64,000 nt of DNA, from the NCBI RefSeq assembly GCF_014931715.1, contig NZ_CP063164.1, forward strand, positions 1,736,001 through 1,800,000, written 5' to 3'. Below the pieces are notes generated by a model. The model ran no database searches. It had not been told where the DNA came from and saw only the letters and a list, made by a program, of their open reading frames with translations. Each line of letters starts with the position of its first letter. Position 1 is the first letter of the stretch. Positions 8,214 through 22,788 of the stretch are shown here, in pieces. The position numbers were made by a program, and so were the translations under genes. The stretch comes from Sulfurovum indicum (GTDB lineage Bacteria; Campylobacterota; Campylobacteria; Campylobacterales; Sulfurovaceae).

Positions 8214-9137
8214 CTACTCAGTAAGTCCGGTTAGAATGCTTTTCATTCCTTCTTGTGCATCTTCCATTACTTTAATATCTTTGGGATCATCAAGAGCCAT
8301 AGAACTCATCCAGTTGTAGACAGAAGGAAATGCTATTTCCATTGCAGCACTGCCTTTTTTCTTGCTCAGATACAGAGAACAGGGAGCATATGCACCTGCT
8401 TCCGGATGTGTTTTTGCAATGGTATATATCACAGGAAGCTTGCAGATAGAGTAAACTTCATAAAAATCAAACTCGTTATATTTCATCTCTTCAAACTCAT
8501 CTCCGAGATTATTAAACCCTGCAACAACAAAACCGTTCGGAGCCAACTCACCTTCAAAACCCATTTTGAACTCTTCCAGTTCATCTTCCCAGTCCTGCGG
8601 GTCAATCTCCATAGTGAAGTGTGTTACAAGTTCGCCTTTAGGCTTTTGTGATACATATGGTAATTTTTGATATACTCCGTCAGGCATTGCCTCTTTTAAT
8701 GTTTTTTTCACTAATTCCCTTAATGCATGCAGTGTTTTATCATCCGCCGGAGCTCCCATAATCTTGGCCATTGCTTCTGCAGTCAAAGAAGCTACAGAAA
8801 TATTTTTATCTCCTTTTTTGGTATAGATAGACATACTCATAGGTGCGAACAATCCTACATTAGGATATTTTTTTGCCAACTCCAGCACCATATCCATTTT
8901 ATAGAGCGTAAACAGGTTATACACATCAAATTCTGATGATTTAAACTGTTTCACAAACGGACCATTCATATCTCTATTGGCAGAGATCGTAAAACCTGCT
9001 TTTTTAAATGCTTCTTCTATACTTTTTGGTGTAATTTTCCCATCAGTATTAGGTGAAGTAAAAACTTCTATATCCGCAGCAGAAGCAATACCGGTAATCA
9101 ATAGTACACACAGCATACCTCGAATGAATCTTTTCAT
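8214..9137 (-). CDS. Exported tandem DUF302-like protein
   Basis: A 307-residue protein with a signal peptide (residues 1-20, ending ASAA) and two related halves, roughly 22-140 and 165-300. Each has the DUF302 pattern of an alpha/beta unit followed by a region like EFDVYNLFTLYKMDMVLELA and LFAPMSMSIYTKKGD (first) or EFDFYEVYSICKLPVIYTIA and AYAPCSLYLSKKKG (second). DUF302 proteins are often found near sulfur-oxidation genes; biochemical function is unknown. AAAGGAA precedes the ATG. It is the last gene of the sox region and has its own upstream gap carrying the TTTACA direct repeat at 9184-9200, so it may also be transcribed separately. Confidence 0.7.
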   Translation of the reverse strand: MKRFIRGMLCVLLITGIASAADIEVFTSPNTDGKITPKSIEEAFKKAGFTISANRDMNGPFVKQFKSSEFDVYNLFTLYKMDMVLELAKKYPNVGLFAPMSMSIYTKKGDKNISVASLTAEAMAKIMGAPADDKTLHALRELVKKTLKEAMPDGVYQKLPYVSQKPKGELVTHFTMEIDPQDWEDELEEFKMGFEGELAPNGFVVAGFNNLGDEFEEMKYNEFDFYEVYSICKLPVIYTIAKTHPEAGAYAPCSLYLSKKKGSAAMEIAFPSVYNWMSSMALDDPKDIKVMEDAQEGMKSILTGLTE

Positions 9138-9183
9138 TATTGTTCCTTTAATTATATTTTATAAGCAGACTATAACAATTAAC

Positions 9184-9200
9184 TGTAAAAATAGTGTAAA
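9184..9200 (-). promoter_or_regulatory. OmpR-type direct repeat upstream of the DUF302 gene
   Basis: On the minus strand: TTTACA-CTATT-TTTACA, two identical hexamers at an 11-bp period, 46 bases before the ATG at 9137. The same arrangement recurs upstream of soxX (17059-17075) and in the dsrE-like/sensor intergenic region (20080-20096). An 11-bp-period tandem repeat is the typical footprint of OmpR/PhoB-class regulators, and one such regulator is encoded at 18248-18907. Confidence 0.5.
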
Positions 9201-9201
9201 A

Positions 9202-9648
9202 TTACGGACGTATATAAATATATCCTCGTAATTGTCTCTCAATAAGCTCTACGATACCTGCTGTTACGACATCAACCCCCTTAAGCAACTCGTTTTTGCC
9301 AATACCATATGTTTTCATTGTATTGCCACAAGCTATGAACTCTACATCATATGTCATTAATGAGCGTACTCTTTTTTGAATATCTTTGTCAAAAAAATAT
9401 GCTTTGGACAATACCGTCTTAATCCCCTGTGAGTAACAGACAATCACGATCTCACATTTTTCCGGTCCGTAAAACTTCATGACATTACTTGCAGAGGAAA
9501 GTACATGGGAAATTTGATGTTCGTCTCCTGATGTAATAGGAAAAATAAATTGTCTTGGATTATCTATGCTTGGCTTTGGATCAGCAAACTCTGTATCTGC
9601 ATTTGAATAAGTGAACAGCAGCAAAATACTTATTATAATATGTTTCAT
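9202..9648 (-). CDS. Periplasmic DsrE-family sulfur-carrier-like protein
   Basis: A 148-residue protein with a signal peptide (about residues 1-17) and a DsrE/DsrF-like fold: PRQFIFPITSGDEHQISHVL, then a beta strand EIVIVCYSQGIK (Cys71), then VEFIACGNTMK (Cys107) and a C-terminal GYIYIRP. The Cys in the ACGNTM motif is the position where DsrE-type proteins carry persulfide or where the related site sits; this supports a sulfur-transfer or sulfur-binding role. Its start overlaps the end of the upstream cytochrome-thioredoxin gene by four bases, so they are translated together. A second family member lies at 20141-20605. Confidence 0.8.
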   Translation of the reverse strand: MKHIIISILLLFTYSNADTEFADPKPSIDNPRQFIFPITSGDEHQISHVLSSASNVMKFYGPEKCEIVIVCYSQGIKTVLSKAYFFDKDIQKRVRSLMTYDVEFIACGNTMKTYGIGKNELLKGVDVVTAGIVELIERQLRGYIYIRP

Positions 9649-10421
9649 TTCTTGTCTCCTTTTAGTTGGTTTATCTTATTGAGTATTTCCAGAAAGTCTT
9701 CTACGTTCCATGCCCCAGGTACACGTTTAAGTACTTTTGCATTTTGGTCAATAAAGAAAAACGTTGGTGTCATATCAGCATGAAGTCCTAATGGCAGATC
9801 CTCCTTGGAAACATCTACCTCTATAGGAATAAAATCTTTTTCAAGAGCCCTCTTTACCTTTTCATCCACCATTACTTCTCTATCCATTTTTACGCAATAT
9901 CGGCAATGCTCAGCAGTTGCTTTGATCATGATCATTTTATGCTCTTTTTGAGCTCTTTTCAATGCTTTATCAAAATTTTCATAATGCACGGTATGCTCAT
10001 CCACACTCTTTTTGTCATAGTCATAAATAAATTTACTCACCGCTGCTATCTCCTCTTCAGAGATCTCTCCCTTCATTGAAGGCATGACATCAAAATACTG
10101 GATTACATCTTTCAGACAAAGACTTTTTTGCAGATCAGGCTCCTTTAGATACTCCGAAATGAAGGCTTCAACTTCCATACGATGGATATCTTCATCACCT
10201 CTTGGGTTACCGATCTGCTGTTTCAGCCGGAATGAAAGTTGATTTAAAGTGGGTGCCTTAAGCTTCAAGATATTGTTGTTTTTTAAAAAATTTTCCTTGA
10301 GTTCACTCATGGGTATATAGGTCTCATGACACACGGAACATTTTTTTTCATAAACCTTTTCCCCTTCTTCTAAAGCAAAAAGAGGCATCAAAAACAATAC
10401 AATTAACCATAACGCTCTCAT
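9645..10421 (-). CDS. Cytochrome c-thioredoxin fusion protein
   Basis: A 258-residue exported protein with a signal peptide (about residues 1-16), one CSVCH haem site (Cys28-His32) in a small cytochrome c domain reaching to about residue 135, and a C-terminal thioredoxin-like domain (about 145-255) with active site CRYC (Cys173/Cys176) and a cis-proline region TPTFFFID. The arrangement resembles SoxW-type or DUF255-like periplasmic thioredoxins fused to a haem domain. It may pass electrons between a Cys-bound sulfur intermediate (for example SoxY) and the respiratory chain; this is inference from context. It overlaps both neighbours by four bases. Confidence 0.75.
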   Translation of the reverse strand: MRALWLIVLFLMPLFALEEGEKVYEKKCSVCHETYIPMSELKENFLKNNNILKLKAPTLNQLSFRLKQQIGNPRGDEDIHRMEVEAFISEYLKEPDLQKSLCLKDVIQYFDVMPSMKGEISEEEIAAVSKFIYDYDKKSVDEHTVHYENFDKALKRAQKEHKMIMIKATAEHCRYCVKMDREVMVDEKVKRALEKDFIPIEVDVSKEDLPLGLHADMTPTFFFIDQNAKVLKRVPGAWNVEDFLEILNKINQLKGDKK

Positions 10422-11341
10422 TCCTCCTCCTCAATGCACAACTCCAACTCCCTGTAGACATCCAGTACATTGCGCCTATGCAACACATCATAAAGTTTAA
10501 ATTTTTTGTATTGCGGCATGTTTACTTTTTTGGTTATCTCATTCATCGATACATCATTATCCAGTGCATTGAGTATCGCGCGCTTCATCTGCGTAAGGTA
10601 GCCCCTCATCATTTTCGTTATATTTTTATCGGTAAGATAACCATGTCCTCCTACAACAACCTTTACATTCATCTGGTCTATTATATCCAATGCTTTGATA
10701 GAGCCAAGAATGGACCCGTCTCTAAGAGAAGGCAGTCTGCCGTTAAAGAGAATATCTCCGGCAAAAAGTACTCCCTCTTTTGGTATAGATACAACAAGGT
10801 CTCCCTCTGTATGTGCTTTATTCACCAGCTTTGTCACTACAAACTCTTTACCACCCAGGGAAAATCCATACCGGTTTTTGACTACTTTGTCCAGGGGAAC
10901 TATTTTTGTTCCTGCAAACAATCTTTCACCCAACACCCTTTCCATTCTGGTCTGCATTCCGGGTACGATATTTTGTTCATAGGTCAACGGGCCTATCAAC
11001 AAAGCATCTTTCTCTTTATAAAAACTGTTTCCCAGCCAATGATCATCATGGTCATGTGTGTTGATTACATATTTCACCGGTAATTTGGCTATCTTCTGCA
11101 TCTGTGCATAGGCCTGAAAGGCATATGCACAGTTAGGGCCGCTGTCAATAACAACAAACCCTTCTTTTGTTTGGACAAAACATGTATTGACCATATTCCC
11201 GCCGTTTTGTTTGGAGATATTTTCCAAAGCACCAAAAAAGCAATACACATCTTTGGCGATACGCTTTGGCTGCAGATGATAGTCAAATGCAGCCAGAGAG
11301 ACAACTATACTGCAGCAAAGGAACAGGTATTTAAGCATCAT
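10418..11341 (-). CDS. SoxH-like MBL-fold metallo-hydrolase
   Basis: A 307-residue exported protein with a signal peptide (residues 1-18) and a metallo-beta-lactamase fold. The metal motif HDHDDH is at residues 96-101 (in VINTHDHDDHW), with further ligands expected in NKAHTEGDLVV and VLFAGDILF, and VVVGGHGYLTD late in the chain. Homologues near sox genes are called SoxH or quinoprotein-relay Zn hydrolases; the substrate is unproven, with a thiol or sulfur adduct being plausible. The first base of its ATG codon and the last base of the porin's stop codon coincide at 11341, so it follows the porin without a gap. Confidence 0.8.
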   Translation of the reverse strand: MMLKYLFLCCSIVVSLAAFDYHLQPKRIAKDVYCFFGALENISKQNGGNMVNTCFVQTKEGFVVIDSGPNCAYAFQAYAQMQKIAKLPVKYVINTHDHDDHWLGNSFYKEKDALLIGPLTYEQNIVPGMQTRMERVLGERLFAGTKIVPLDKVVKNRYGFSLGGKEFVVTKLVNKAHTEGDLVVSIPKEGVLFAGDILFNGRLPSLRDGSILGSIKALDIIDQMNVKVVVGGHGYLTDKNITKMMRGYLTQMKRAILNALDNDVSMNEITKKVNMPQYKKFKLYDVLHRRNVLDVYRELELCIEEEE

Positions 11342-12846
11342 TAAAAGAGATAATTGAACTCTAAACGATATTCATTGTACGAAACATCTGCTTTGCCTGT
11401 ACTTCCCGGATCAGCATTTACAATACCGACACGAGTCTTCATCTGGAAATTCTTCGTAAAGTTGTACCAAGTGTCCAGGTGCCAAATCGTACTATCCGCC
11501 TGTACGTTTACTTTGGCATCATCAAAATCCTGTACTGCATAACGCAAACTTGCTTTAAAATCCGGAGTAAACTTATATACAGCTCTTATCATATACGTCT
11601 TGGTATTCGCATACCAGTTATACTGTGCCATTGCTCTGGTAAATCCACCTGTGGGGAACCCTCTCCATGGAGCTACGATATCTGCTTTGTCTGCTACTTC
11701 TGAGTATCCGAGTCTAAAGAAACCTTTTTTCTTCGGCATCTGCAAATCAACCCTTGCAGCAAAAAGACTACTGTCCAGTGAATCGGCAACACCTGCATCA
11801 TATCCAGTCGCAGCTTTTCCTGTAAGGTTGGTGTACCCTGCAACAGCCCCACCGCCATCATCCATCTGATGGAAGTATCTCACTCCCGGTCTCAATGCCC
11901 AACCATTCTCAAATGGTATCTTGTAGTGTGCTTCAACTACGATATCTTTTACTACACCCGGAACAGACAATGCACTGAGTTTGAAGTTCAGGTTTTTAAC
12001 ATATTTCGTTTGCAAATCTGCCAGAAAAAGGTCATGGTTTGGATCTTCGCCTGCTGCAACAAAATTAGCATAACTCAGTCCCTTATGTACTGCTGAATCA
12101 TCATTATTGTTCCAACTTTCACCAGATTCATCTTTGAATGTCAAGACATCATGGGCATTTTCATGGTCTCTCAGTTTCTGCTTGCCAAACCAGGCTGCTC
12201 TTACTTTGGTCTTTGGTGCAATTTTGATACTTGCAGAAACACCGTCAAAGGTATTTGGGATCATTTTGGTATCGTTTGAAGCAGTGAAGACTGACTCAAA
12301 AAGCTGACGCCCCGCTTTTACATCAACTGTCCCGTTATTATATTCCAGGAACCCTTGACCCAATGTATGCATACCAAAACCGCCACCGGTTTTCACTTTA
12401 TATCTGCTAAAAGTATCTTTTCCCGCTTTGACAAATCCCACTTCATCTGCATCCATTCTGAAAAAGTCAGGATTCATTGTTCCGTAATACCCTAAAGTAA
12501 AACTAATACCGTTATACACTGCCGACTTATAGATAAGGCTTCCTCCAACACCCCAGGCTTTATTATCTTGATTCTTTGTACTTTCTATATCCCAATCCCA
12601 ATAAAATGTATTGGATCTGAGTCTTCCGTAAAAGATTCCTTCTGTAAACATATCACCTACAGACTCAACATCTCCAGGCAGAACATTATACTTTACAGTC
12701 ATATTTCCTTTAGTTTGACGTTTAGGCTTGTCTGCTTTGGCTTTTACTGCCGGCTCAACAGGAATGATATCCCCACCTGCCACAGCAGATGTTCCCATAA
12801 GCAATGCTGCTGTAGCTACTCCTATCGTTATTGTTCCCTTTTTCAT
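11341..12846 (-). CDS. Outer-membrane porin
   Basis: A 501-residue protein with a signal peptide (about residues 1-23) and a long beta-rich body ending in aromatic YRLEFNYLF, the usual C-terminal signal for outer-membrane barrel assembly. The alternating aromatic/polar strands (for example VKAGRQLFESVF, FRLGYSEVAD, KTYMIRAVYKF, FKASLRYAVQDF) are like the OprD/OprF-type porins of Campylobacterota. It heads the coupled porin-MBL-cytochrome/Trx-DsrE group, so it may import the sulfur substrate. AAAGGA precedes the ATG. A 17-bp palindrome at 12907-12923 lies in its promoter region. Confidence 0.8.
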   Translation of the reverse strand: MKKGTITIGVATAALLMGTSAVAGGDIIPVEPAVKAKADKPKRQTKGNMTVKYNVLPGDVESVGDMFTEGIFYGRLRSNTFYWDWDIESTKNQDNKAWGVGGSLIYKSAVYNGISFTLGYYGTMNPDFFRMDADEVGFVKAGKDTFSRYKVKTGGGFGMHTLGQGFLEYNNGTVDVKAGRQLFESVFTASNDTKMIPNTFDGVSASIKIAPKTKVRAAWFGKQKLRDHENAHDVLTFKDESGESWNNNDDSAVHKGLSYANFVAAGEDPNHDLFLADLQTKYVKNLNFKLSALSVPGVVKDIVVEAHYKIPFENGWALRPGVRYFHQMDDGGGAVAGYTNLTGKAATGYDAGVADSLDSSLFAARVDLQMPKKKGFFRLGYSEVADKADIVAPWRGFPTGGFTRAMAQYNWYANTKTYMIRAVYKFTPDFKASLRYAVQDFDDAKVNVQADSTIWHLDTWYNFTKNFQMKTRVGIVNADPGSTGKADVSYNEYRLEFNYLF

Positions 12847-12906
12847 TTCATATCCTTTTTTCTTTGTCTATCTTCATAAAAAGATAGTTTTTTGCTATAA
12901 TTTATA

Positions 12907-12923
12907 TGTGATATTACATCACA
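12907..12923. promoter_or_regulatory. Palindromic operator-like site upstream of the porin
   Basis: TGTGATATTACATCACA: half-sites TGTGAT and ATCACA are perfect inverted copies around five bases. It sits about 60 bases upstream of the porin ATG and just upstream of an AT-rich -10-like stretch. The form resembles a CRP/FNR-family site, although the spacing differs from the E. coli CRP consensus. Confidence 0.45.
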
Positions 12924-12924
12924 G

Positions 12925-12994
12925 CCGTGAGTGCCCTGTCTGCTTTTAGGTAGACTTTCAACGATCTTTAGGCTAAGACGAGGCACGGTTTTTT
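12925..12994 (+). other. Hairpin with competing arms between soxB and the porin
   Basis: CCGTG (12925-12929) and GTGCC (12931-12935) both can pair with GGCACGG (12982-12988), which is followed by six Ts on the plus strand. No plus-strand gene lies upstream, so its role as a terminator is doubtful; it may attenuate readthrough from soxB or be a worn copy of an E1/E2-type repeat. Confidence 0.35.
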
Positions 12995-13006
12995 AATGTT
13001 GCTGTA

Positions 13007-14779
13007 TTAGCACCTGGCACCTTTTTGAGGACATCCACAATCATAGTCCAATACTTTTACATTTGACTTCATACTGATATTCACAACTTTTTGTTTACGA
13101 ATATAGTTACTTACAACCTCATAGACTGCCGGGGTCTTCGTCGAGAGGTTTTCTCCTGCATTTTGCAAGTTTCCACCCCATGATGAGACCCTATATGTTT
13201 TTTTCAGATCGATCGGTTTACCTCCTATCTTGAAGTCAGAAATACGTTTTCCAGAAGGGGCAGTGATGTTAATACTGTAACTTGCACCTGTTAAACGACT
13301 CATATCACCACCCTGTTGAAGCAGTGGATTTTCATTAAAAACATTATCCGCTATGTCTTCCATCAGGTTTGCGATCACTTCCCCCTTAAGCTCAAACGTA
13401 TAGACTTCAGGGTAAGTAATAGCTGTCATCTCATAGACATTGTCCTTGAGTATTTTGTCACCCGGCAAGAGGGTTGTTCCCCATCTGTATCCGGGCGTAA
13501 AAACAATATCACTACCCATCTCTGCTTGTATTGCCTGGCCGATGAGTGCATCAAATGTAGAGTAGAAAGTGTCTCTTTTATAAAGGAGTCCTTTGGTCGT
13601 ACCCAGCACTTCATTAAGCTCTTTATCAAATGGTGCATATACTTTAGCCACTAATTCTTCTCCGGCTTTATCGGCGGGTATTAGATTCGAAGCAACAGGC
13701 ATAAGTTTAAAATTATACCCTTCGACTTTCCTGTTTTTGATATCGATATCCAGCCTGCCTATGTATTTACCATGACTTCCCGCTATCAGAATGACTGTAT
13801 CATTCACAATGATCGGTTTCGGGCTGGGGTCATGCGTATGTCCGCTCAAAATAAAGTCAACACCTTTTACTTTCTTTGCCAACTCCTGGTCAACAGAGAA
13901 GCCATCATGACTCAGTACAACAATACAGTCTACTTTTTTCTCATTGCGCAGTTCGTCAACGAACTTCTGAAGTGATTCATGTCTCAGTGCAAAACTCCAA
14001 CCTTCAGTAAACTTTTTAGGGTTTGCCGTAGAGGTGAACGGAAAAGACTGGCCAATAATACCAATTTTCGCTCCACCTACCTCTTTGATGGTATATGGAG
14101 GAAATATCAACTCCTCAAAGTCATCAGAGAAAGGATCATTATCTATCACATTTTGGGAGATGAATTCACCGTCAAGCATCTTGATAAGCTCCATGACACG
14201 CTCTTTCCCGTAAGTAAACTCCCAGTGACCGACCATTACATCCACACCCAGATAGTTCTGTGCTTCCACGATCGCCGCACCGTCAGTTTTGAGGGCTACT
14301 GCCGTTCCCTGCCAGGTATCACCACTATCCAAAAGAAGGACATTCTCTTCACCTCTTTCTTTTTTAACATAATCAATGATCGGTTTCATATGAGCGATCC
14401 CACCCATCTTTCCAAACTTCTTGGCAAGTATTTCAAAGTTATTATGTGTATCAAAATACTGGTCTAATGATCCCGGTTCAATCCCATAATAACGTTCAAA
14501 ACTATCTCCACAGATAAAACCCGGTGTTCCTACCAGGTTTTTGGCAGAGATCAGAGTAGAAGGCTCCCTCCAGTAGAGTGGTTTGATATGCGCATGAAGA
14601 TCACATATATGCAACAGAGTTGCTTTACCTTTTGCCTCAAAATCCACAATATCTGAAAAACTGAGTTTTTTGATACGCTCTTTACCGGCTTCACCTGCAA
14701 AAAGATTTGTTCCTCCAGTTGCCCCCAACAATCCCAATGCTGCCGCAATCTGAAGAAAATCTCGTCTATTAATATCCAT
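13007..14779 (-). CDS. soxB: Thiosulfohydrolase SoxB
   Basis: A 590-residue periplasmic dimanganese enzyme that hydrolyses sulfate from the thiosulfonate bound to SoxY. A Tat-type signal is present (RRDFLQIAAALGLLG, residues 5-19). The 5'-nucleotidase-like metallophosphatase motifs are intact: DLHAHIKP (Asp60, His62, His64), LLLDSGDTWQGTA, GHWEFTYG, VVLSHDGFSVD and LSGHTHDPSP. The C-terminal substrate-domain follows. AAGGGGCC precedes the ATG, 9 bases after soxA. A TatB/TatC pair that could export it is encoded at 36.8-38.2 kb. Confidence 0.95.
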   Translation of the reverse strand: MDINRRDFLQIAAALGLLGATGGTNLFAGEAGKERIKKLSFSDIVDFEAKGKATLLHICDLHAHIKPLYWREPSTLISAKNLVGTPGFICGDSFERYYGIEPGSLDQYFDTHNNFEILAKKFGKMGGIAHMKPIIDYVKKERGEENVLLLDSGDTWQGTAVALKTDGAAIVEAQNYLGVDVMVGHWEFTYGKERVMELIKMLDGEFISQNVIDNDPFSDDFEELIFPPYTIKEVGGAKIGIIGQSFPFTSTANPKKFTEGWSFALRHESLQKFVDELRNEKKVDCIVVLSHDGFSVDQELAKKVKGVDFILSGHTHDPSPKPIIVNDTVILIAGSHGKYIGRLDIDIKNRKVEGYNFKLMPVASNLIPADKAGEELVAKVYAPFDKELNEVLGTTKGLLYKRDTFYSTFDALIGQAIQAEMGSDIVFTPGYRWGTTLLPGDKILKDNVYEMTAITYPEVYTFELKGEVIANLMEDIADNVFNENPLLQQGGDMSRLTGASYSINITAPSGKRISDFKIGGKPIDLKKTYRVSSWGGNLQNAGENLSTKTPAVYEVVSNYIRKQKVVNISMKSNVKVLDYDCGCPQKGARC

Positions 14780-14788
14780 CTTGGCCCC

Positions 14789-15550
14789 TTATCGTTTTAA
14801 ACCGGGAATGGCAATTTGTTTTTTGTGATCCTGTGCCAGTTTCGTCACATATACCTCAAGACCTACCATCTCTTTGGATCCTATAGGGATCACTTTAAGC
14901 AATGCATTTTTCATACATCCCTGAAATCGTCTCTGAAGAGTTCTCAGACTGGATTTGGTCATACGGTAAGCCGGCCATGTTGCACCTGCACCCACCGCAC
15001 CGAGATCCGGCAAAGGCTGCGTCCTGAGTACCATACCTACAATATCTTTACTGTGACAGGAATTACAGGAAAGTCCTCTTCCTCCTCTTGGTGTCATAAA
15101 GGTCTTTTTACCCAGTTCATAAGCTTCTTTTTCATGAGGCTCACTCAAATCTATATTCGGCACCTCTTCATTTGCCAATGATTTGACATATGCCAGCATT
15201 GAGAACATTTTTTTATCTTTGAGTTTTGTGATCTTTTTACCCTGCTCTGCCTGCATCGCCTGCATCACCTGATCCAATCCGACAACATTTCCAAGTTTTT
15301 TAACATATTTTGGGAACGTAGCGATCTCTTTAGGCAGATCATTCTCACTCACACCCAAAAACTTTGCCAGTGCAGCATCTCCGCCCAACTCCTCTTCAAG
15401 TATCTCACCACCCTCTTCTACAAAAATATCAGCAGGGTTGTTTTCCAACATCTCTTTATACATCGCTCTGTCTGCATCACTCATCGCAAACTGATCACCT
15501 GCAGTTGCCATGGTAAGCAAAAGAGCTAACGGTAATATAACTCTTTTCAT
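14789..15550 (-). CDS. soxA: Sulfur-oxidation cytochrome SoxA
   Basis: A 253-residue subunit of the SoxAX complex, which attaches thiosulfate oxidatively to SoxY. Signal peptide at residues 1-17. One haem site CNSCH (162-166), so this is a mono-haem SoxA, the type lacking the N-terminal haem. The catalytic, persulfidated haem-ligand cysteine is Cys212 in RRFQGCMKN, with conserved LRTLQ before it. AAAAGGATAAG precedes the ATG. It is separated from soxZ by three bases. Confidence 0.93.
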   Translation of the reverse strand: MKRVILPLALLLTMATAGDQFAMSDADRAMYKEMLENNPADIFVEEGGEILEEELGGDAALAKFLGVSENDLPKEIATFPKYVKKLGNVVGLDQVMQAMQAEQGKKITKLKDKKMFSMLAYVKSLANEEVPNIDLSEPHEKEAYELGKKTFMTPRGGRGLSCNSCHSKDIVGMVLRTQPLPDLGAVGAGATWPAYRMTKSSLRTLQRRFQGCMKNALLKVIPIGSKEMVGLEVYVTKLAQDHKKQIAIPGLKR

Positions 15551-15553
15551 TAC

Positions 15554-15898
15554 TTATCCTTTTGGCTTAAGTTTTTTACTCTTGGAGTTCTTCTCGCCTG
15601 TGTTGTCTGTATAGTCAACTGTGATCTTTCCTTTTCCCGGTACTTTGAAATTCACTGAAAAGTATGGATTTGTCGAAACTGTTTCCCATACCTTCATTGT
15701 AGTAAATGGTTTACCGTTAAAACTGAATGTAATATTGTCTATATAGTGTGCAGGTTTGATCTCACCTGTTTTCTTGTCTTTTACCAAACCTGTATCCATG
15801 GGATGGATAACAATAAAGTCTACCTTTACAATATCACCTACCTTATACTTCTTTGGTTTAATTTTTATCATTGATTTTCGTGCTTCTTTTTCTGCCAT
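15554..15898 (-). CDS. soxZ: Thiosulfate-carrier partner SoxZ
   Basis: A 114-residue immunoglobulin-like partner that forms the SoxYZ carrier. No signal peptide is seen (MAEKEARKSMIKIKPKK), consistent with export piggy-back with Tat-exported SoxY. Conserved features include KVDFIVIHPMDTGLVKD and FTMKVWETVSTNPYFSVNF. AAAGGATAA precedes the ATG. Confidence 0.95.
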   Translation of the reverse strand: MAEKEARKSMIKIKPKKYKVGDIVKVDFIVIHPMDTGLVKDKKTGEIKPAHYIDNITFSFNGKPFTTMKVWETVSTNPYFSVNFKVPGKGKITVDYTDNTGEKNSKSKKLKPKG

Positions 15899-15950
15899 CT
15901 GTTATCCTTTAGTTTTTATATCGCTTCTATAAATATAAGATTGACTCAAA

Positions 15951-16418
15951 TCAACCACATCCACCGATCGTTACTTTGACACTTTTCCCTGCTTTAATGA
16001 ATGTGCCATCACTTAATTCTACCAAGCCGACAACCTCTTGTGTACCGCCAAGTTTTACTCTTGTTGCAAAGTAACCTTTGCCGTTTTCCGGTGTAAGCAT
16101 TACATCTGCACATCTGGCATTGCCGTTTTTTGTGTTCAGTACATGGATCGCTTTAACATAGTTTCCCTCTTCCATAGGATGGTCAACTTCTACCTTTACC
16201 GGAACAACTGCTCCGTTCTCTGCGATCTCTGGTACAGTTAATTTAACTTTCTTGCTCTCTTTTACCTCTTTACCGCCCGTGATCGCTTCAACAGCTGCTT
16301 CATAGGTGAGGTCATTAGGACCTTTTTTCTTTGCTTTTTCTTGCGCCATCAATACTGCGGGTGTCGCAGCTACCGCCGATACTGCCATCACACTTTTAAT
16401 AAAATTTCTTCTTTTCAT
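15951..16418 (-). CDS. soxY: Thiosulfate-carrier protein SoxY
   Basis: A 155-residue carrier whose C-terminus is exactly the hallmark GGCG (residues 152-155), with Cys154 holding the sulfur intermediate. The N-terminus is a Tat-like signal (MKRRNFIKSVMAVSAVAATPA) which fits export of folded SoxYZ. It lies between soxX and soxZ with short gaps and has AAAAGGAAAG ahead of the ATG. Confidence 0.96.
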   Translation of the reverse strand: MKRRNFIKSVMAVSAVAATPAVLMAQEKAKKKGPNDLTYEAAVEAITGGKEVKESKKVKLTVPEIAENGAVVPVKVEVDHPMEEGNYVKAIHVLNTKNGNARCADVMLTPENGKGYFATRVKLGGTQEVVGLVELSDGTFIKAGKSVKVTIGGCG

Positions 16419-16435
16419 TCTTTACTTTCCTTTTA

Positions 16436-17011
16436 TTACTTTTTCTTTTTTTCAGCCACTACGTATGATGTAAGATCACATATTTCTCGTTCATTGAAGA
16501 GCTTAGTGGTCAAATTAACTGTCATATGTGTATTTGGATTATCGATCCTGGGATCAGCAATCTTCTGAAATACAAACTGATGGTCCCTTATTTTCGTATC
16601 AATGAACATTGCTTTGTAACCTGTCAGGTCCGGACCTATGTTCCCCCCTCCAACAGCACCTTCAATATTATGACAGGCAACACAGTTACCGTACTGTTTA
16701 GGCTTTTTTTTGACTTTACCGTCTTTGCCTTTCTGTTCAATGAATTTTACCAACCCTTTAGGTGGCTTCTTTTTTGCCTTTTTACCATTAAGATTATGGA
16801 AAATATACTCTCCTCTTGCAATCGCCTCCGCATCTGTTGTAACACATCCTTCAGGCATAGTATATTTCGTAGGTTCAGCAAGTTTGTCTTTTTCGATCAG
16901 TTTGCTTGCATCCGGCATTTCATATGCTTTGGTCAGATCTACTGCACTTACCAGTGATGTTGATGAAATCAACATAGCGGCAATAGTAACAAGTTTGATT
17001 CTTTTTTGCAT
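16436..17011 (-). CDS. soxX: Sulfur-oxidation cytochrome SoxX
   Basis: A 191-residue monohaem cytochrome, partner of SoxA. Signal peptide at residues 1-23. Haem site CVACH at 110-114, with a downstream Met in NTHMTVNL as the likely distal ligand. An internal Lys-rich stretch (about 78-105: KKAKKKPPKGL and KGKDGKVKKKPKQ) is notable. It is the first gene of soxXYZAB; AAAGGAGTGTG precedes the ATG and the TTTACA direct repeat lies at 17059-17075 upstream. Confidence 0.93.
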   Translation of the reverse strand: MQKRIKLVTIAAMLISSTSLVSAVDLTKAYEMPDASKLIEKDKLAEPTKYTMPEGCVTTDAEAIARGEYIFHNLNGKKAKKKPPKGLVKFIEQKGKDGKVKKKPKQYGNCVACHNIEGAVGGGNIGPDLTGYKAMFIDTKIRDHQFVFQKIADPRIDNPNTHMTVNLTTKLFNEREICDLTSYVVAEKKKK

Positions 17012-17058
17012 TCACACTCCTTTATCATATAATTTCAAGAGCCATCTTAACAAAGAAG

Positions 17059-17075
17059 TGTAAAAAAATTGTAAA
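17059..17075 (-). promoter_or_regulatory. OmpR-type direct repeat upstream of soxX
   Basis: On the minus strand: TTTACA-ATTTT-TTTACA at an 11-bp period, 47 bases before the soxX ATG. This distance is almost the same as that of the copy upstream of the DUF302 gene (46 bases), which argues for a functional operator. It lies 29 bases from the stop of the adjacent kinase gene. Confidence 0.55.
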
Positions 17076-17103
17076 AAACTGAATAGACTGTTATAAAGAA
17101 GTT

Positions 17104-18258
17104 TTATTTTGGTAAAAAAGTGTAAGTAAAAGTAGTGCCATGGCCGGGTGTAGAGCTTACATCTAACAGGATGTCCTCTTCATCAATGATCTGTTTAACA
17201 ATATTCAGGCCGATTCCAAAACCGCCTTTGGCTTCATTTTCTCTATAGTATCGGGAAAATATCTTCTTTACATTTTTGATACCTACACCTTGGTCTTTTA
17301 CCTCAAAGATAATATTTTCATTTTTTATTTTCAAAATAATATCGACTTGTGTATTGTCATGACTGTATTTGATCGCATTGGAAATTGTATTATCAACAAT
17401 ACGTTGCAGTTTCGTTTTAGAGCACTTGTATATCACACCATTTTCAATATCGGTCTTCAAAATAATATTTTTCATGTTGGCAATCTCCTGGAAATAGTCT
17501 ACTCTGTTCTGAATGAACTCTCCAAAATCCATTAGCTCTTTTTTATACTCTACCCGTCCCTGCTTAATAAGGTAATCCATGTCATTATAAATGGTCGCAA
17601 GTGTTTTTGAAGCAGATTTAATACGCCACAGGTATTTATTTTCTCCATACTTGTTGGCAAAAAGATCTGCATTGAGATTAATAATACTTAATGGCGTATT
17701 GATTTCATGCATAGAGTCTTTGATAAAGTTATCCAGCTGGGTATTGAGTTTTTCAAAGGGTGCAGAAAAATTTTTCAGCAACAAAAGTGAAAAGATAAAT
17801 AATGCACCAACTATAGCTACCATCACGGACAAAGCAAAAAGGTAAATATAGCTTGCTGTATGGTTTGTCTCAACCAGAAGATAACTTGCACCAAAATAGT
17901 AACCGGGCGGGAGCGGATAAATATAGTAGTATCGACTGCCTTCATGATGAAAGCCTTCTGTAAAGGAGGTTAGCTCAAAATCGGAGGTAGAAAATATCTT
18001 CTGATACTTATCGTCAAGAAGTGCGGCTTTATACTCTTTATATCTGGGAAAGTTGTAAACTTTGTCACTGTTCTTGTACTTCTGCATGGAGACAATGATC
18101 TTTTTAGCCTGGGACTCCAGAGCAAGTTTCACTTTCGCCTCATCTATCTGCAGCAAGAGCGCTATATAAGTAATAAGAGGTACAATCAGCAATACAGCAA
18201 GTACAGCCGTATAGATCAATGCATATTTTCGGGCGAACTTCTTAGGATCAAAGATCAA
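17104..18258 (-). CDS. Sensor histidine kinase
   Basis: A 384-residue inner-membrane kinase. Two membrane helices (about residues 13-33 and 133-160) flank a short periplasmic region; then an H-box DSMHEINTPLSIINL (His at about 193), N-box DNTISNAIKYS, and ATP-binding G-boxes DQGVGIKNV and GFGIGLNIVKQI. The only plausible start is a TTG at 18258 overlapping the regulator by 11 bases. With the response regulator and the membrane sensor it forms a tight minus-strand operon next to soxX, so it probably controls sulfur oxidation; the signal is unknown. Confidence 0.85.
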   Translation of the reverse strand: MIFDPKKFARKYALIYTAVLAVLLIVPLITYIALLLQIDEAKVKLALESQAKKIIVSMQKYKNSDKVYNFPRYKEYKAALLDDKYQKIFSTSDFELTSFTEGFHHEGSRYYYIYPLPPGYYFGASYLLVETNHTASYIYLFALSVMVAIVGALFIFSLLLLKNFSAPFEKLNTQLDNFIKDSMHEINTPLSIINLNADLFANKYGENKYLWRIKSASKTLATIYNDMDYLIKQGRVEYKKELMDFGEFIQNRVDYFQEIANMKNIILKTDIENGVIYKCSKTKLQRIVDNTISNAIKYSHDNTQVDIILKIKNENIIFEVKDQGVGIKNVKKIFSRYYRENEAKGGFGIGLNIVKQIIDEEDILLDVSSTPGHGTTFTYTFLPK

Positions 18259-18907
18259 TACTGTATCCTACACCACGAATATTTTTAATGAAATCATGTT
18301 TGAGTTTCTTACGTAAACCTCCCACCTGTACCCGTATATTTGTCGGGTCTATCCACTCGCCCCACACCTCTTCCCAGAACATTTCATAGCTTACTACATT
18401 TCCTCTCTGTTTGATAAGAAGCTCCAGTATTTTTGCTTCTGTCTTTGCAAGCAAGATATCTTCTTTTTCAAAAGAGAGTTTCATTCTCTTAAGATCATAC
18501 CTGTAGCCAAAAGGAAGTTCTATACATTCATCCGGAGAGGAGAAACAGTACATCTTAATAACCTGTTCCATACGCAGTTTGAGTTCGGCAAGATCAAAAG
18601 GTTTACGTATATAGTCACATGCTCCACACTCATACCCACGACTTAAGTCCTCTATATCCGTTAAAGACGTAATGAAAATAGCCGGTATCTTTACCCCCTC
18701 TTTTCTAAGCATTTCAAGCATTTCAAAACCGCTCTGCTCCCCCAATACTTTCACATCCAGAAGAAGCAAATCGTATACAGTTTCATAAATAGCATCATAA
18801 GCCTCTTCAGAGTGGGAATAACAATTCACTTCATAGCCACTCTCTTCCAGGAACTCCTGCATACTCAAAGCCAGCATTGACTCATCTTCTAAAATAAGTA
18901 TTTTCAT
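18248..18907 (-). CDS. OmpR-family response regulator
   Basis: A 219-residue regulator. The receiver domain (about 1-118) has acidic residues in LILEDESM, phospho-Asp in LLLDVKVLG, and Lys in IRKPFDL; the winged-helix DNA-binding domain (about 130-219) ends VQVGGLRKKLKHDFIKNIRGVGYSI. It overlaps the upstream sensor gene by four bases (ATGA) and the downstream kinase by 11. It is the best candidate to bind the TTTACA-N5-TTTACA repeats in this island. Confidence 0.9.
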   Translation of the reverse strand: MKILILEDESMLALSMQEFLEESGYEVNCYSHSEEAYDAIYETVYDLLLLDVKVLGEQSGFEMLEMLRKEGVKIPAIFITSLTDIEDLSRGYECGACDYIRKPFDLAELKLRMEQVIKMYCFSSPDECIELPFGYRYDLKRMKLSFEKEDILLAKTEAKILELLIKQRGNVVSYEMFWEEVWGEWIDPTNIRVQVGGLRKKLKHDFIKNIRGVGYSIDL

Positions 18908-20010
18908 TTTATCACTCCGATCTTCTTCTCATTATGTTCATTTGAGAGTATAATATCTATAAGCTCTTCTTTACTATACTCTCCAAGTATCTCTTTCGCT
19001 TCAGCTTCAAATTCTACCTTATCCTCTTTATTTAATCTCGGAAGAAGTTCGATCAACTCCTTGTCATACCTGTTTCTAAAACTGCCGAACGGGTGAACCC
19101 ATGATGCTACGACATTCTCTATATCCTCATCCGAGAATTGTGTAAAAAATGAAATACTTTGATTCTCTCTTTCATATTTTTCCAATGCGCTGCCTGGCAG
19201 AACAAGTAAATATACTCCGATTTTATCTCCCCTTCCATTATACATCGGCTCCAGCGAATAAAGTGTTTCAGAATCATAAAGATAACTCTTTTGGATAAGC
19301 CTATCCCAGTCTATCTCTTTTACTCTATCTATCATTTGATGATTATAGTTCTGGTTAGCCACAACATAACCATGGATCATAGGAAAATCACGCATCAATT
19401 CAGCTTGCTCAAGATAACGTTCATCCATAAGAGCAAAGAGTTCTATCCCCTTTTTACGCAGCTTGGCTGCAAATTCATCAATAAGCTTGATCACTTCCAA
19501 ATACCCTAGCAACTTATTACCGCTGCGTATAGGTATTGTTGCTTTAAAAGTAAGTAGTCTACCTGTTTCCATCCCTACTTTAGGCTGCTTGTTCTCTTTA
19601 AAGATCCCAAGATCATCTCGAAACCACCAAATCGGCATCCCTTCAAAACCCTTGTTCCAACTGCGTGCAAAAATAAAGAAGTCTGGAGAAAGTACCTGGA
19701 TGCGCAGAGATTTAAGATGCGTATACTTTTTAAACCGTTGCGTGATTTTACTCAGGATTCTATATCCTTTGGACTCATCCTCTGATATGAGTGCATTCTT
19801 AAGTTCACCATCTTCAGAAAGTGCCAAAGAAAAAGAGAGAAGATCCACCATTTCATAGGAAAGCCCTGCTCTGAAATTGCTTACAACATGATCACTTAGA
19901 CTCTCCAGCCTGTCTTCTTTGTTTTGTCTTGCAAAGAAAAAGATGGAAACAAGAAGTATGACCAATACAAAAAAAGTAATTAATAAAAATATTTTATTCA
20001 TATATCTCAT
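18904..20010 (-). CDS. Membrane Cache-type sensor protein
   Basis: A 368-residue protein with one N-terminal membrane helix (about residues 6-27) and a large periplasmic domain (about 30-300) resembling a dCache ligand-binding module (FKKYTHLKSLRIQVLSPD, ARSWNKGFEGM, TGRLLTFKATIPIRSG, LGYLEVIKLIDEF). I see no second membrane helix, HAMP, kinase or methyl-accepting domain, so it is a stand-alone sensor that may work with the following regulator and kinase. An alternative start is the ATG at 20001. It is divergent from the DsrE-like gene at 20141. Confidence 0.65.
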   Translation of the reverse strand: MRYMNKIFLLITFFVLVILLVSIFFFARQNKEDRLESLSDHVVSNFRAGLSYEMVDLLSFSLALSEDGELKNALISEDESKGYRILSKITQRFKKYTHLKSLRIQVLSPDFFIFARSWNKGFEGMPIWWFRDDLGIFKENKQPKVGMETGRLLTFKATIPIRSGNKLLGYLEVIKLIDEFAAKLRKKGIELFALMDERYLEQAELMRDFPMIHGYVVANQNYNHQMIDRVKEIDWDRLIQKSYLYDSETLYSLEPMYNGRGDKIGVYLLVLPGSALEKYERENQSISFFTQFSDEDIENVVASWVHPFGSFRNRYDKELIELLPRLNKEDKVEFEAEAKEILGEYSKEELIDIILSNEHNEKKIGVIK

Positions 20011-20079
20011 ACTTGAATGCTACGAAACAAAGACTATATTTAGGCTTAACTCTAAAAAGTTGAAATAAAATTACACTGT

Positions 20080-20096
20080 TTTACGCTTTTTTTACA
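20080..20096 (+). promoter_or_regulatory. OmpR-type direct repeat in the sensor/dsrE divergent region
   Basis: TTTACG-CTTTT-TTTACA at an 11-bp period; a third TTACAC at 20071-20076 extends the array. It lies 45 bases upstream of the DsrE-like ATG (20141), the same distance as at the other two sites, and could also act on the divergent sensor-regulator-kinase operon. Confidence 0.5.
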
Positions 20097-20140
20097 TTCT
20101 TCTGATACTATAAAATAATTTTATTTCATGAAGGATATTA

Positions 20141-20605
20141 ATGCAAAAAATTATTATTGTATTACTTTTTACTCTAGGTTTTCTCCAGGCAGAAGAAGAA
20201 ACAGCCAAGGTTGTATATGATCTGACCACTAAAGATCTAAAAACATTTGAACGAAAAATACTTCAAGGTGTTGTTGCCAATAAAATTCACTATGAGAGTC
20301 AATTAAAGGAATTGGAGGTAACCGTAGTTATTCATGGTGGTGCATACAGGTTTTTTACCAAAGATCCTGGTAATTCTCTTTTCAAAAATGATACAGCACT
20401 TATGGAAAACTACAGAATACTGGCTAAGCGTATAGACTCTTTGATCAAAACCTATGACGTAGAATTTCTTATGTGCGGTGCAGCCATGGTGAAAAATAAA
20501 CTGCAGGCAAAAGATGTCTACAGTTTTGTTAAAATTATTCCCAATTCCACCATAGGACTCATAGACAAACAAAATGAAGGCTATGCATATATTCCTGTAA
20601 ATTAA
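20141..20605 (+). CDS. Exported DsrE-family protein (second copy)
   Basis: A 154-residue protein with a signal peptide (residues 1-17) and a DsrE-like fold: LEVTVVIHGGAYRFF (His65), then VEFLMCGAAMVKNK (Cys112), then a C-terminal GYAYIPVN that parallels GYIYIRP of the homologue at 9202-9648. The first Cys of that homologue is not conserved here. AAGGATATT precedes the ATG. It is divergent from the sensor operon and sits downstream of a TTTACR direct repeat, tying it to the sox island; a role as periplasmic sulfur carrier is inferred. Confidence 0.75.
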   Translation: MQKIIIVLLFTLGFLQAEEETAKVVYDLTTKDLKTFERKILQGVVANKIHYESQLKELEVTVVIHGGAYRFFTKDPGNSLFKNDTALMENYRILAKRIDSLIKTYDVEFLMCGAAMVKNKLQAKDVYSFVKIIPNSTIGLIDKQNEGYAYIPVN

Positions 20606-20922: not shown

Positions 20923-20942
20923 AAGCAAAAAAGGACAAGAAG

Positions 20943-21599
20943 ATGATCAATATCCTGATGATAGAAGATGATCCCGAATTCGCAGAACTGCTCAGTGAAT
21001 ACCTTTCCCAGTTTGATATCAAGATCACCAATTATGAAGATCCTTTTCTGGGTCTGAGCGCAGGTGTAAAAAAATTTGATCTGGTAATCCTTGATCTTAC
21101 CCTTCCGGGAATGGACGGATTGGAAGTATGTGAAGAGTTGGTACGCAAATACGATATCCCTGTTATTATCTCTTCAGCACGCAGTGATATCAATGACAAA
21201 GTACAGAGCTTTGAACTGGGTGCCTATGACTATCTGCCAAAGCCGTATGATCCTAAAGAGATGTATGCACGTATTATGGCGATCCTCAACCGGGTTAATA
21301 GAGAAGAGGGAAAAGGGAGTAGTGCAACACCCAAAAGTGACTTCGAGATCAGAGGGGATACTATCTACTACAAAGGGGAAGCGCTCAACCTGACCCCTGC
21401 GGAGTTCGAAGTCCTCTCCCTGCTTGTCAAAAACCAGGGGATCACCCAGTCACGAGAACAGATCATCAACTCTTCCGCAACCATGAGTATCGACTCACAG
21501 GGGAAAAGCCTGGATGTGATCATCTCCAAGATACGCTCCAAACTTGGCGATAACAAACGTATTCAGGCCGTTCGCGGTGTAGGATACAAACTTGTTTAA
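20943..21599 (+). CDS. OmpR-family response regulator (ArsR-like)
   Basis: A 218-residue regulator. I choose ATG 20943 (MINILMIEDDPEF, preceded by AAGGACAAGAAG) over the longer frame beginning inside E2 at 20763. The receiver has acidic EDD, phospho-Asp in LVILDLTLPGMDG and Lys in YLPKPYDPKEMYAR; the winged helix (about 125-218) ends IRSKLGDNKRIQAVRGVGYKLV. Sequence style and pairing recall the Campylobacterota ArsRS acid-response pair, but orthology is not proven. Its end overlaps the kinase start by eight bases. Confidence 0.85.
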   Translation: MINILMIEDDPEFAELLSEYLSQFDIKITNYEDPFLGLSAGVKKFDLVILDLTLPGMDGLEVCEELVRKYDIPVIISSARSDINDKVQSFELGAYDYLPKPYDPKEMYARIMAILNRVNREEGKGSSATPKSDFEIRGDTIYYKGEALNLTPAEFEVLSLLVKNQGITQSREQIINSSATMSIDSQGKSLDVIISKIRSKLGDNKRIQAVRGVGYKLV

Positions 21600-22788
21600 C
21601 CACTTCTCTTCCCTACGCAGCAAAATCAAGCTGGTATTCTCTATTACACTGCTGCTTCTTGCTATCCTCTTTATCGGTTCGATCAAATACGACTATGCCA
21701 AATATGATGAGCTCAATGAAGCCAGAGAACGTGCCATCTCCCACTATCTTTATCACTATTATCTTAAAACAGGCAAGATCGATGAGGCATACCTTGAATC
21801 CCAAAATGTCTCACTTATCAAAGACAAAGCCAAAGTCATACAGATAGAACGTTACTTTAAAGAAAAAGGAAAATATAAAAAATATGCTGTTGATACCTTT
21901 AGGCTCCAACGTATCATTCTCATTAACAATGACCGATTCAAACTCTTTTTGGAAAACAAGAACAGACCAAAATATCCTTTAAAAAGAATCGCCGTCTTCA
22001 CCATAGTTTTTCTACTGATCATTTTACTCTACTTCTGGGTCATACGCAGTCTGCGTCCGCTTTCAGAACTCAAAAACAAGATTAAAACCTTTTCAGAAGG
22101 GAACCTCAACATTCAATGTGCCAGTGACAAACATGATGAGATCGCAGAAGTCGCCAACGAGTTCGACCATGCCGTCAATATGATACGGGAACTGCTTCAG
22201 TCACGCCAACTCTTTTTACGTGCTATCATGCATGAGCTAAAGACTCCTATCGCCAAAGGGCGGCTAATGAGTGAGATGCTTCCTGATGAAAAGAGCAAAC
22301 AAAGGATGCATAGTATCTTCGAACGTCTCAATCTGCTTATCGATGAATTTGCAAAAATAGAGAAGATCACCTCAAAGAACTTCAAACTGAAACTCAAACC
22401 TTATAAAATGAGTGATCTGGTAGAAGCAAGTATCGATCTGCTTATGGTTGAGAACCCCGGCCGACTTGTCAGTATAGAGATAAAGAAAGACTATATTGTC
22501 AAATCCGATTTTGAACTTTTTACATTAGTCGTAAAAAATCTTCTGGATAATGCGCTCAAGTACTCTACAGACAAACATGTCATCGTAGTGATCGACAGTG
22601 ATCATCTCGATATCATTAACAAAGGTGAAGCACTGAAGGAACCGTTGGAAGAGTATTTCAAACCTTTCCATACCTCAAAAGGCGGATTGGGACTGGGACT
22701 CTATATCGTCAAGAGTATTTTGGATATTCATAAAATGACATTAGCCTATCGATATGAAGAAGGCAAAAATATCTTTACAGTAAGATAG
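21592..22788 (+). CDS. Sensor histidine kinase (ArsS-like)
   Basis: A 398-residue kinase with TTG start at 21592 overlapping the regulator gene. Membrane helices at about residues 10-27 and 130-150 bracket a small periplasmic domain. A HAMP segment (RSLRPLSELKNKIKTFSEG) is followed by H-box IMHELKTPIAKGRLMSEML, N-box NLLDNALKYSTDK and a compact G-box KGGLGLGLYIVKSI. Its cognate partner is the preceding regulator. The gene is convergent with the DAHP synthase gene, with a hairpin between them. Confidence 0.85.
   Translation: MFNHFSSLRSKIKLVFSITLLLLAILFIGSIKYDYAKYDELNEARERAISHYLYHYYLKTGKIDEAYLESQNVSLIKDKAKVIQIERYFKEKGKYKKYAVDTFRLQRIILINNDRFKLFLENKNRPKYPLKRIAVFTIVFLLIILLYFWVIRSLRPLSELKNKIKTFSEGNLNIQCASDKHDEIAEVANEFDHAVNMIRELLQSRQLFLRAIMHELKTPIAKGRLMSEMLPDEKSKQRMHSIFERLNLLIDEFAKIEKITSKNFKLKLKPYKMSDLVEASIDLLMVENPGRLVSIEIKKDYIVKSDFELFTLVVKNLLDNALKYSTDKHVIVVIDSDHLDIINKGEALKEPLEEYFKPFHTSKGGLGLGLYIVKSILDIHKMTLAYRYEEGKNIFTVR

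Follow-up and report, generated by a model that had tools for sequence, protein, structure and literature searches.

We analyzed a 64,000-nucleotide (nt) stretch of the Sulfurovum indicum genome (contig NZ_CP063164.1, positions 1,736,001 to 1,800,000; here called the window, with position 1 as its first letter), which carries an 11-kb sulfur-oxidation island. Three genes of this island, encoding a DUF302 protein, SoxX, and a DsrE-like protein, are each preceded by a direct repeat with an 11-bp period, TTTACA-N5-TTTACA or, in one case, TTTACG-N5-TTTACA, hereafter referred to as the box. An earlier note on this DNA had linked the box to an OmpR/PhoB-type regulator encoded at 18248-18907, a proposal supported by the distribution and conservation described below. 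The genes and promoters of the island are the following.

8214..9137 (-): DUF302 protein of 307 amino acids (aa) with an N-terminal signal-like sequence, predicted target (Pfam PF03625, 7e-07)
9169..9200 (-): DUF302 promoter; box TTTACA-CTATT-TTTACA at 9184-9200, N6, extended -10 TGTTATAGT at 9169-9177
9202..9648 (-): first DsrE-like protein, final gene of the sox operon (Pfam DsrE, 9e-13)
9645..10421 (-): thioredoxin/cytochrome-like protein (SoxW-like); gene order as dsrE-soxW-soxH1 in PMC10045233
10418..11341 (-): metallo-beta-lactamase-fold protein (SoxH-like; TIGR04558, 194.8 bits, under the cut-off of 300)
11341..12846 (-): OprD-family porin
13007..17011 (-): soxX-soxY-soxZ-soxA-soxB block
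13007-14779 (-): soxB, named by gene order and recognition
14789-15550 (-): soxA, named likewise
15554-15898 (-): soxZ, named likewise
15951-16418 (-): soxY, named likewise
16436-17011 (-): soxX (TIGR04485, 76.8 bits, cut-off 61)
17044..17075 (-): soxX promoter; box TTTACA-ATTTT-TTTACA at 17059-17075, N6, extended -10 TGTTAAGAT at 17044-17052
17104..18258 (-): sensor histidine kinase of 384 aa (HisKA and HATPase_c)
18248..18907 (-): OmpR/PhoB-family response regulator, predicted to bind the box (Response_reg 1.5e-21, Trans_reg_C 4e-15)
18904..20010 (-): membrane-anchored double-Cache sensor protein of 368 aa without a kinase domain (dCache_3 in orthologs, fold model)
20033..20038 (-): putative -10 TATAGT of the sensor-regulator-kinase operon, apart from the box and conserved in close relatives
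20080..20111 (+): promoter of the second DsrE-like gene; box TTTACG-CTTTT-TTTACA at 20080-20096, N6, extended -10 TGATACTAT at 20103-20111
20141..20605 (+): second DsrE-like protein, predicted target (Pfam DsrE, 5.9e-12)

We assign soxY, soxZ, soxA, and soxB tentatively, from our own recognition and from gene order; the order soxX-Y-Z-A-B is conserved in relatives. From 8214 to 17011, order and spacing match the published sox island of S. indicum ST-419 (dsrE, soxW, soxH1, one gene, soxB, A, Z, Y, X).

All three boxes lie where the earlier note had placed them. The gap between box and start codon is 46 nt for the DUF302 gene and 47 nt for soxX, as noted previously, but 44 nt instead of 45 for the second DsrE-like gene. 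A third half-copy reported near 20070 is present as TTAC, although its spacing to the next copy is 10 nt and not 11. The motif had been expected to be rare genome-wide, and indeed TTTACRN5TTTACA has only three exact matches in the 2,209,694-base genome, all in this island. Because the reversed control pattern also has three matches, the bare count is unremarkable, and what is non-random is the clustering of the boxes, their orientation, and their position and distance relative to the genes. The equal counts would be compatible with a chance AT-rich coincidence, but all three boxes fall within 11 kb, are directed toward genes at equal distance from start codon and -10, and are conserved throughout the order, which makes such a coincidence extremely improbable.

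Of the 62 open reading frames of at least 100 aa in the window, these three alone are preceded within 90 nt by a pair matching at 12/12 positions, and this holds for the 5-nt spacer only, in agreement with the claim that no other such pair occurs in the window's spacers. With spacers of 2 to 4 and 6 to 9 nt, the best pair upstream of the same reading frames reached 11/12. Allowing one mismatch gave 56 matches in the genome versus 49 for the control, and a scan for further genome sites at one to three mismatches likewise showed no excess over the reversed control. The genome thus probably contains no target promoters beyond these three. An Rfam scan of the window returned no RNA families at gathering thresholds.

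A feature new with respect to the earlier note is that, in all three promoters, the second TTTACA is followed after exactly 6 nt by an extended -10 of the form TG-N-TANNNT (TG-T-TATAGT for DUF302, TG-T-TAAGAT for soxX, and TG-A-TACTAT for the DsrE-like gene). Relative to this -10, the box spans roughly -38 to -22. In PhoB-type class II activation, the operator stands in place of the -35, with an 11-bp period on one helix face and a fixed short distance to the -10. The geometry of the box is in good agreement with this layout and is, as judged from the sequence, that of a PhoB-like class II activator promoter: in the window and in relatives, the putative operator occupies the -35 position at a fixed distance from the -10. 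One could also read the TTTACA repeats as general AT-rich, -35-like promoter features without operator function, since TTTACA resembles a -35 hexamer, the window has a GC content of 42%, and lone one-mismatch matches are frequent by chance. However, the two hexamers are spaced 9 and 20 nt from the -10 hexamer, neither of which is the normal -35 distance, and the enrichment is restricted to the 5-nt spacer.

Conservation within the genus was assessed in 78 genomes, with the box plus extended -10 searched as a composite. Regulator orthologs (54 to 88% identity) were found in 36 of the 78, in addition to a fragment at a contig end in genome G012, and soxX is present in these same 37 genomes. The box precedes soxX in practically every one, with slight decay at a few loci (e.g., L115, L119, L122, and L123). 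The composite gave 50 exact matches in 30 of the 37 regulator-bearing genomes and none in the 41 genomes lacking regulator and sox (Fisher p 3e-15), which also argues against a general promoter feature. All 50 could be assigned: 24 to soxX, 19 to DUF302-family genes, 4 to DsrE-like genes, 1 to a rhodanese gene (L069), and 2 to a 470-aa outer-membrane-type protein. The regulon of relatives would thus be wider than previously noted, by the rhodanese and the outer-membrane-type protein. Furthermore, DUF302 genes retain the box on contigs separate from sox (L226, L227, L230, L233).

Two loci show rearrangements around predicted targets. Genome G001 (L224:1-13001) harbors three DUF302 genes in tandem, regularly spaced at 3,883 bp and each with the identical box, a local amplification. 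In G002 (L069:14802), the box is separated from the DsrE-like gene by the gene of a secreted rhodanese, which takes over the promoter. One-mismatch composites before a multicopper-oxidase-like gene (L234, 83 nt from the start), before a conserved secreted protein of 183 to 186 aa (L240/L241), and in intergenic repeats (L235/L236) were not counted as part of the regulon.

The genus-wide distribution also bears on the window's other OmpR-type pair (20940-22788), which adjoins the island, belongs to the right family, and might be thought to own the box. Its ortholog (at least 79% identity) occurs in 72 of the 78 genomes, whether or not they have sox or the box, and is missing from some that have both (G012, G024, G057, and G066). 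In addition, the recognition helix of its regulator (20940-21599) differs from that of the regulator at 18248-18907. We therefore rejected this neighboring regulator as the box binder on its distribution, and consider its ownership of the box very unlikely.

A position weight matrix derived from soxX promoters of the genus proved too specific to its clade to serve for distant relatives, and plain boxes were counted instead in the rest of the order Campylobacterales. The soxX box is present at 31 of 34 soxX loci of other genera (at most 2 mismatches of 12, most exact); the orthologous soxX promoters, singled out in the earlier note as a place to look, thus conserve the motif throughout the order. 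The three boxless loci belong to G352 and G407, of one genus, and to G084, of another family, where the best regulator match is at 36 to 37%, the level of an ordinary paralog. The box was also retained before soxX in G236, G100, G098, and G260, although the regulator ortholog (55 to 59%) does not adjoin soxX there. Across genomes, the direct repeat co-varies with the regulator, and this joint loss of box and regulator further opposes a general promoter feature, which we judge to be a highly improbable explanation.

In 1.05 Mb of DNA from named relatives (Sulfurovum, Sulfurimonas, Sulfuricurvum, Hydrogenimonas, and Nitratiruptor), TTTACA-N5-TTTACA occurs 95 times, compared to 0 to 6 times for spacers of 1 to 4 and 6 to 10 nt and twice for the reversed pattern, and its distance to the start codon peaks at 45 nt. 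Of 60 soxX genes, 55 have an exact same-strand box no more than 200 nt upstream, whereas no such box precedes any soxY (0/58), soxZ (0/55), soxA (0/54), or soxB (0/52) gene. The same count did not bear out the autoregulation of the sensor operon suggested in the earlier note: boxes precede 2 of 55 sensor genes, 0 of 74 regulator genes, and 0 of 78 kinase genes. Moreover, the third box of the window and its -10 face the DsrE-like gene, and the sensor operon has its own putative -10 about 41 nt from the box. We thus rejected autoregulation as unsupported.

The regulator consists of a receiver and a C-terminal winged helix, with D51 and K102 invariant in the alignment. It belongs to no NCBIfam equivalog and falls far short of the PhoB models, scoring 110.1 bits against a cut-off of 296.2 (TIGR02154) and 122.6 against 270 (NF053854). 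Its recognition-helix segment, NIRVQxxxLRKKL, is nearly unchanged throughout the order in the same alignment, while overall identity drops to about 47 to 50%. The sensor is encoded by the first gene of the operon and the kinase by the third. As the earlier note had it, the sensor is a Cache protein, but no kinase domain was found in it, the kinase being a separate gene (17104-18258). The dCache_3 profile matched 65 of 68 sensor orthologs, the window protein alone giving a weak match (E 0.0066). An AlphaFold model (predicted local distance difference test [pLDDT] 82.5) places two Cache modules after one membrane helix, and its best fold match is the sensor domain of DctB, with vpHK1S-Z8 and other double-Cache kinase sensors also matching. 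Since the sensor profile matched none of the solved structures in a sequence search, this fold is a predicted one. Sensor and kinase presumably cooperate, because their gene order is invariant.

On this sequence evidence, we consider it highly probable that the box is the operator of the regulator encoded at 18248-18907, which would activate three island targets in class II fashion with input from the Cache sensor. The periplasm-facing double-Cache protein would sense a small molecule (probably a sulfur compound such as thiosulfate) and relay its state to the separate histidine kinase, which would phosphorylate the regulator. Two regulator subunits would then bind head-to-tail to TTTACA-N5-TTTACA on one face of the helix, take the place of the -35 directly upstream of the extended -10, and recruit RNA polymerase, as PhoB does. 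The targets would be the soxXYZAB-porin-soxH-soxW-dsrE operon, the DUF302 gene, and the second DsrE-like gene. Activation of these targets appears likely, and we favor it because of the promoter geometry and the loss of the box in regulator-less genomes.

Thiosulfate is a plausible signal, judging indirectly from published Sulfurovum transcriptomes. In S. indicum, soxABXY1Z1 transcripts were more abundant with thiosulfate, dsrE, soxW, and soxH1 were significantly upregulated, and soxCDY2 went up on elemental sulfur (S0) (PMC10045233). The soxC promoter of the window's genome was checked and carries no box, so that soxCD is excluded from the regulon there. These observations would fit a thiosulfate response that depends on the box.

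Several points nevertheless weigh against this account. The published fold changes are modest, about 1.5 to 4 (PMC10045233). Many of the genomes are incomplete, the data points are phylogenetically non-independent, and co-occurrence with sox could in principle also hold for another linked factor. From -38 to -22, repression is sterically as possible as activation. The same regulator and box could then form a repressor system, in which the regulator covers the -35 region, overlapping the polymerase, and blocks it until a signal releases it. Campylobacterota sigma-70 promoters are known to have a weak -35 or none, and the absence of a -35 alone therefore does not prove activation. However, PhoB boxes at a similar distance from the -10 are generally known to activate, and the regulator-less soxX genomes G352, G407, and G084 lost the box instead of keeping it. 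Furthermore, PceP, an OmpR-type regulator of the same class, has been argued to activate from boxes overlapping the -35 (PMC7755780). We regard repression as unlikely. Finally, 18 genomes of the order have a relative of the regulator and lack soxX, and the paralogous operons described below imply that signals differ between systems, two of them (L341, L342) yielding no exact box.

We inspected 12 loci from these genomes. Three of them, located on short fragments, have regulators that cluster with the sox-linked ones, and the other nine are paralogous sensor-regulator-kinase operons, whose regulators keep the recognition helix of the sox-linked regulator. At seven of these nine, the exact box stands before a multihaem cytochrome gene (45 to 53 nt downstream), before a small cytochrome c gene, or before one of each. 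Since the same box and helix occur before cytochrome genes without sox, the box tracks the type of regulator and not sox. The operons at L338 to L340 and L344 to L346 resemble the window in operon order, recognition helix, and TTTACA-N5-TTTACA box, but their targets are cytochrome, NHL-repeat, PpiC, and beta-barrel genes instead of sox. It appears evenly poised whether the three-protein module (kinase-less double-Cache sensor, kinase, and OmpR-type regulator) and its operator form a portable Campylobacterales cassette, placed before different respiratory gene sets (sox, multihaem cytochrome conduits) with only the sensor diverging, and serving as the main switch of thiosulfate oxidation.

Genes for doubled-CXXCH cytochromes lie downstream of the box at the paralogous loci L338:10001-12900, L339:7100-9938, L340:8212-12929, L344, L345, and L346. 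The L340 cluster also encodes NHL-repeat proteins, PpiC, and a 580-aa beta-barrel-like protein, possibly an electron conduit. Genome G131 has two regulators of this family (C32:1124-1777 and C126:898-1548); if their box sets are identical, the insulation between them is unexplained.

The window's genome contains other operator-like repeats. At G000:C1:918182-918213 (L133:1501-1532), TTCACA-N5-TTCACA-N6-TGCTATGAT lies 34 nt before a gene for a small secreted protein, which has a cytochrome c gene as its neighbor; another regulator/kinase pair (regulator 915474-916121) lies just upstream. The promoter design is the same, with another word. We take this site to resemble the DccR motif of C. jejuni. 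Repeats of TTAACAC-N4-TTTAACAC occur at G000:C1:265901-265932, 268256, and 279134, near a TonB-dependent-receptor-like gene, and possibly represent another OmpR-type operator.

At vents and redoxclines, bacteria of the Sulfurovum and Sulfurimonas type are the dominant sulfur oxidizers. If the cassette proposal is true, the system would be the main thiosulfate-oxidation switch of a globally abundant group. The analysis yields a candidate operator, regulator, and sensor, a target list, and natural regulator-less controls, and thereby makes the separate switching of thiosulfate and S0 sox clusters, a long-open question, directly testable.

Among known systems, PhoB and the pho box of E. coli share with the window a winged-helix OmpR-family regulator and an 11-bp-period direct repeat that replaces the -35 and ends about 10 nt before the -10. 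The word here is TTTACA and not CTGTCAT, however, the regulator scores far under the PhoB cut-offs, the targets are sulfur-oxidation genes, and the Cache sensor is separate. Our searches of the open-access literature turned up no report of a sox regulator or its box from Campylobacterota, and a review of how respiration is regulated in the phylum names no sox regulator in the passages found (PMC6682613). OmpR-type control of respiratory genes in the class is already known (PMC7755780), as is two-component control of sulfur oxidation in Acidithiobacillus (PMC5093147). PceS/PceP of Sulfurospirillum is likewise a Campylobacterota two-component system, whose OmpR-type regulator controls a respiratory gene region from direct repeats overlapping the -35, with gel shifts published (PMC7755780). 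It differs in its repeat (CTATW-N17-CTATW), its signal (tetrachloroethene), a kinase that senses by itself, and its own two-component operon as target (PMC7755780). RsrS-RsrR and TspS-TspR of Acidithiobacillus caldus, the latter located upstream of sox-I, similarly control thiosulfate/tetrathionate oxidation genes, but the site bound by RsrR is an inverted repeat of 19 bp, TspR depends on sigma-54, and the bacteria are unrelated (PMC5093147). According to PMC10451225 and PMC12423496, the ArsR-type SoxR and sHdrR of Hyphomicrobium also regulate sox genes, there in response to sulfane sulfur, but, unlike the system proposed here, they are one-component repressors of another protein family.

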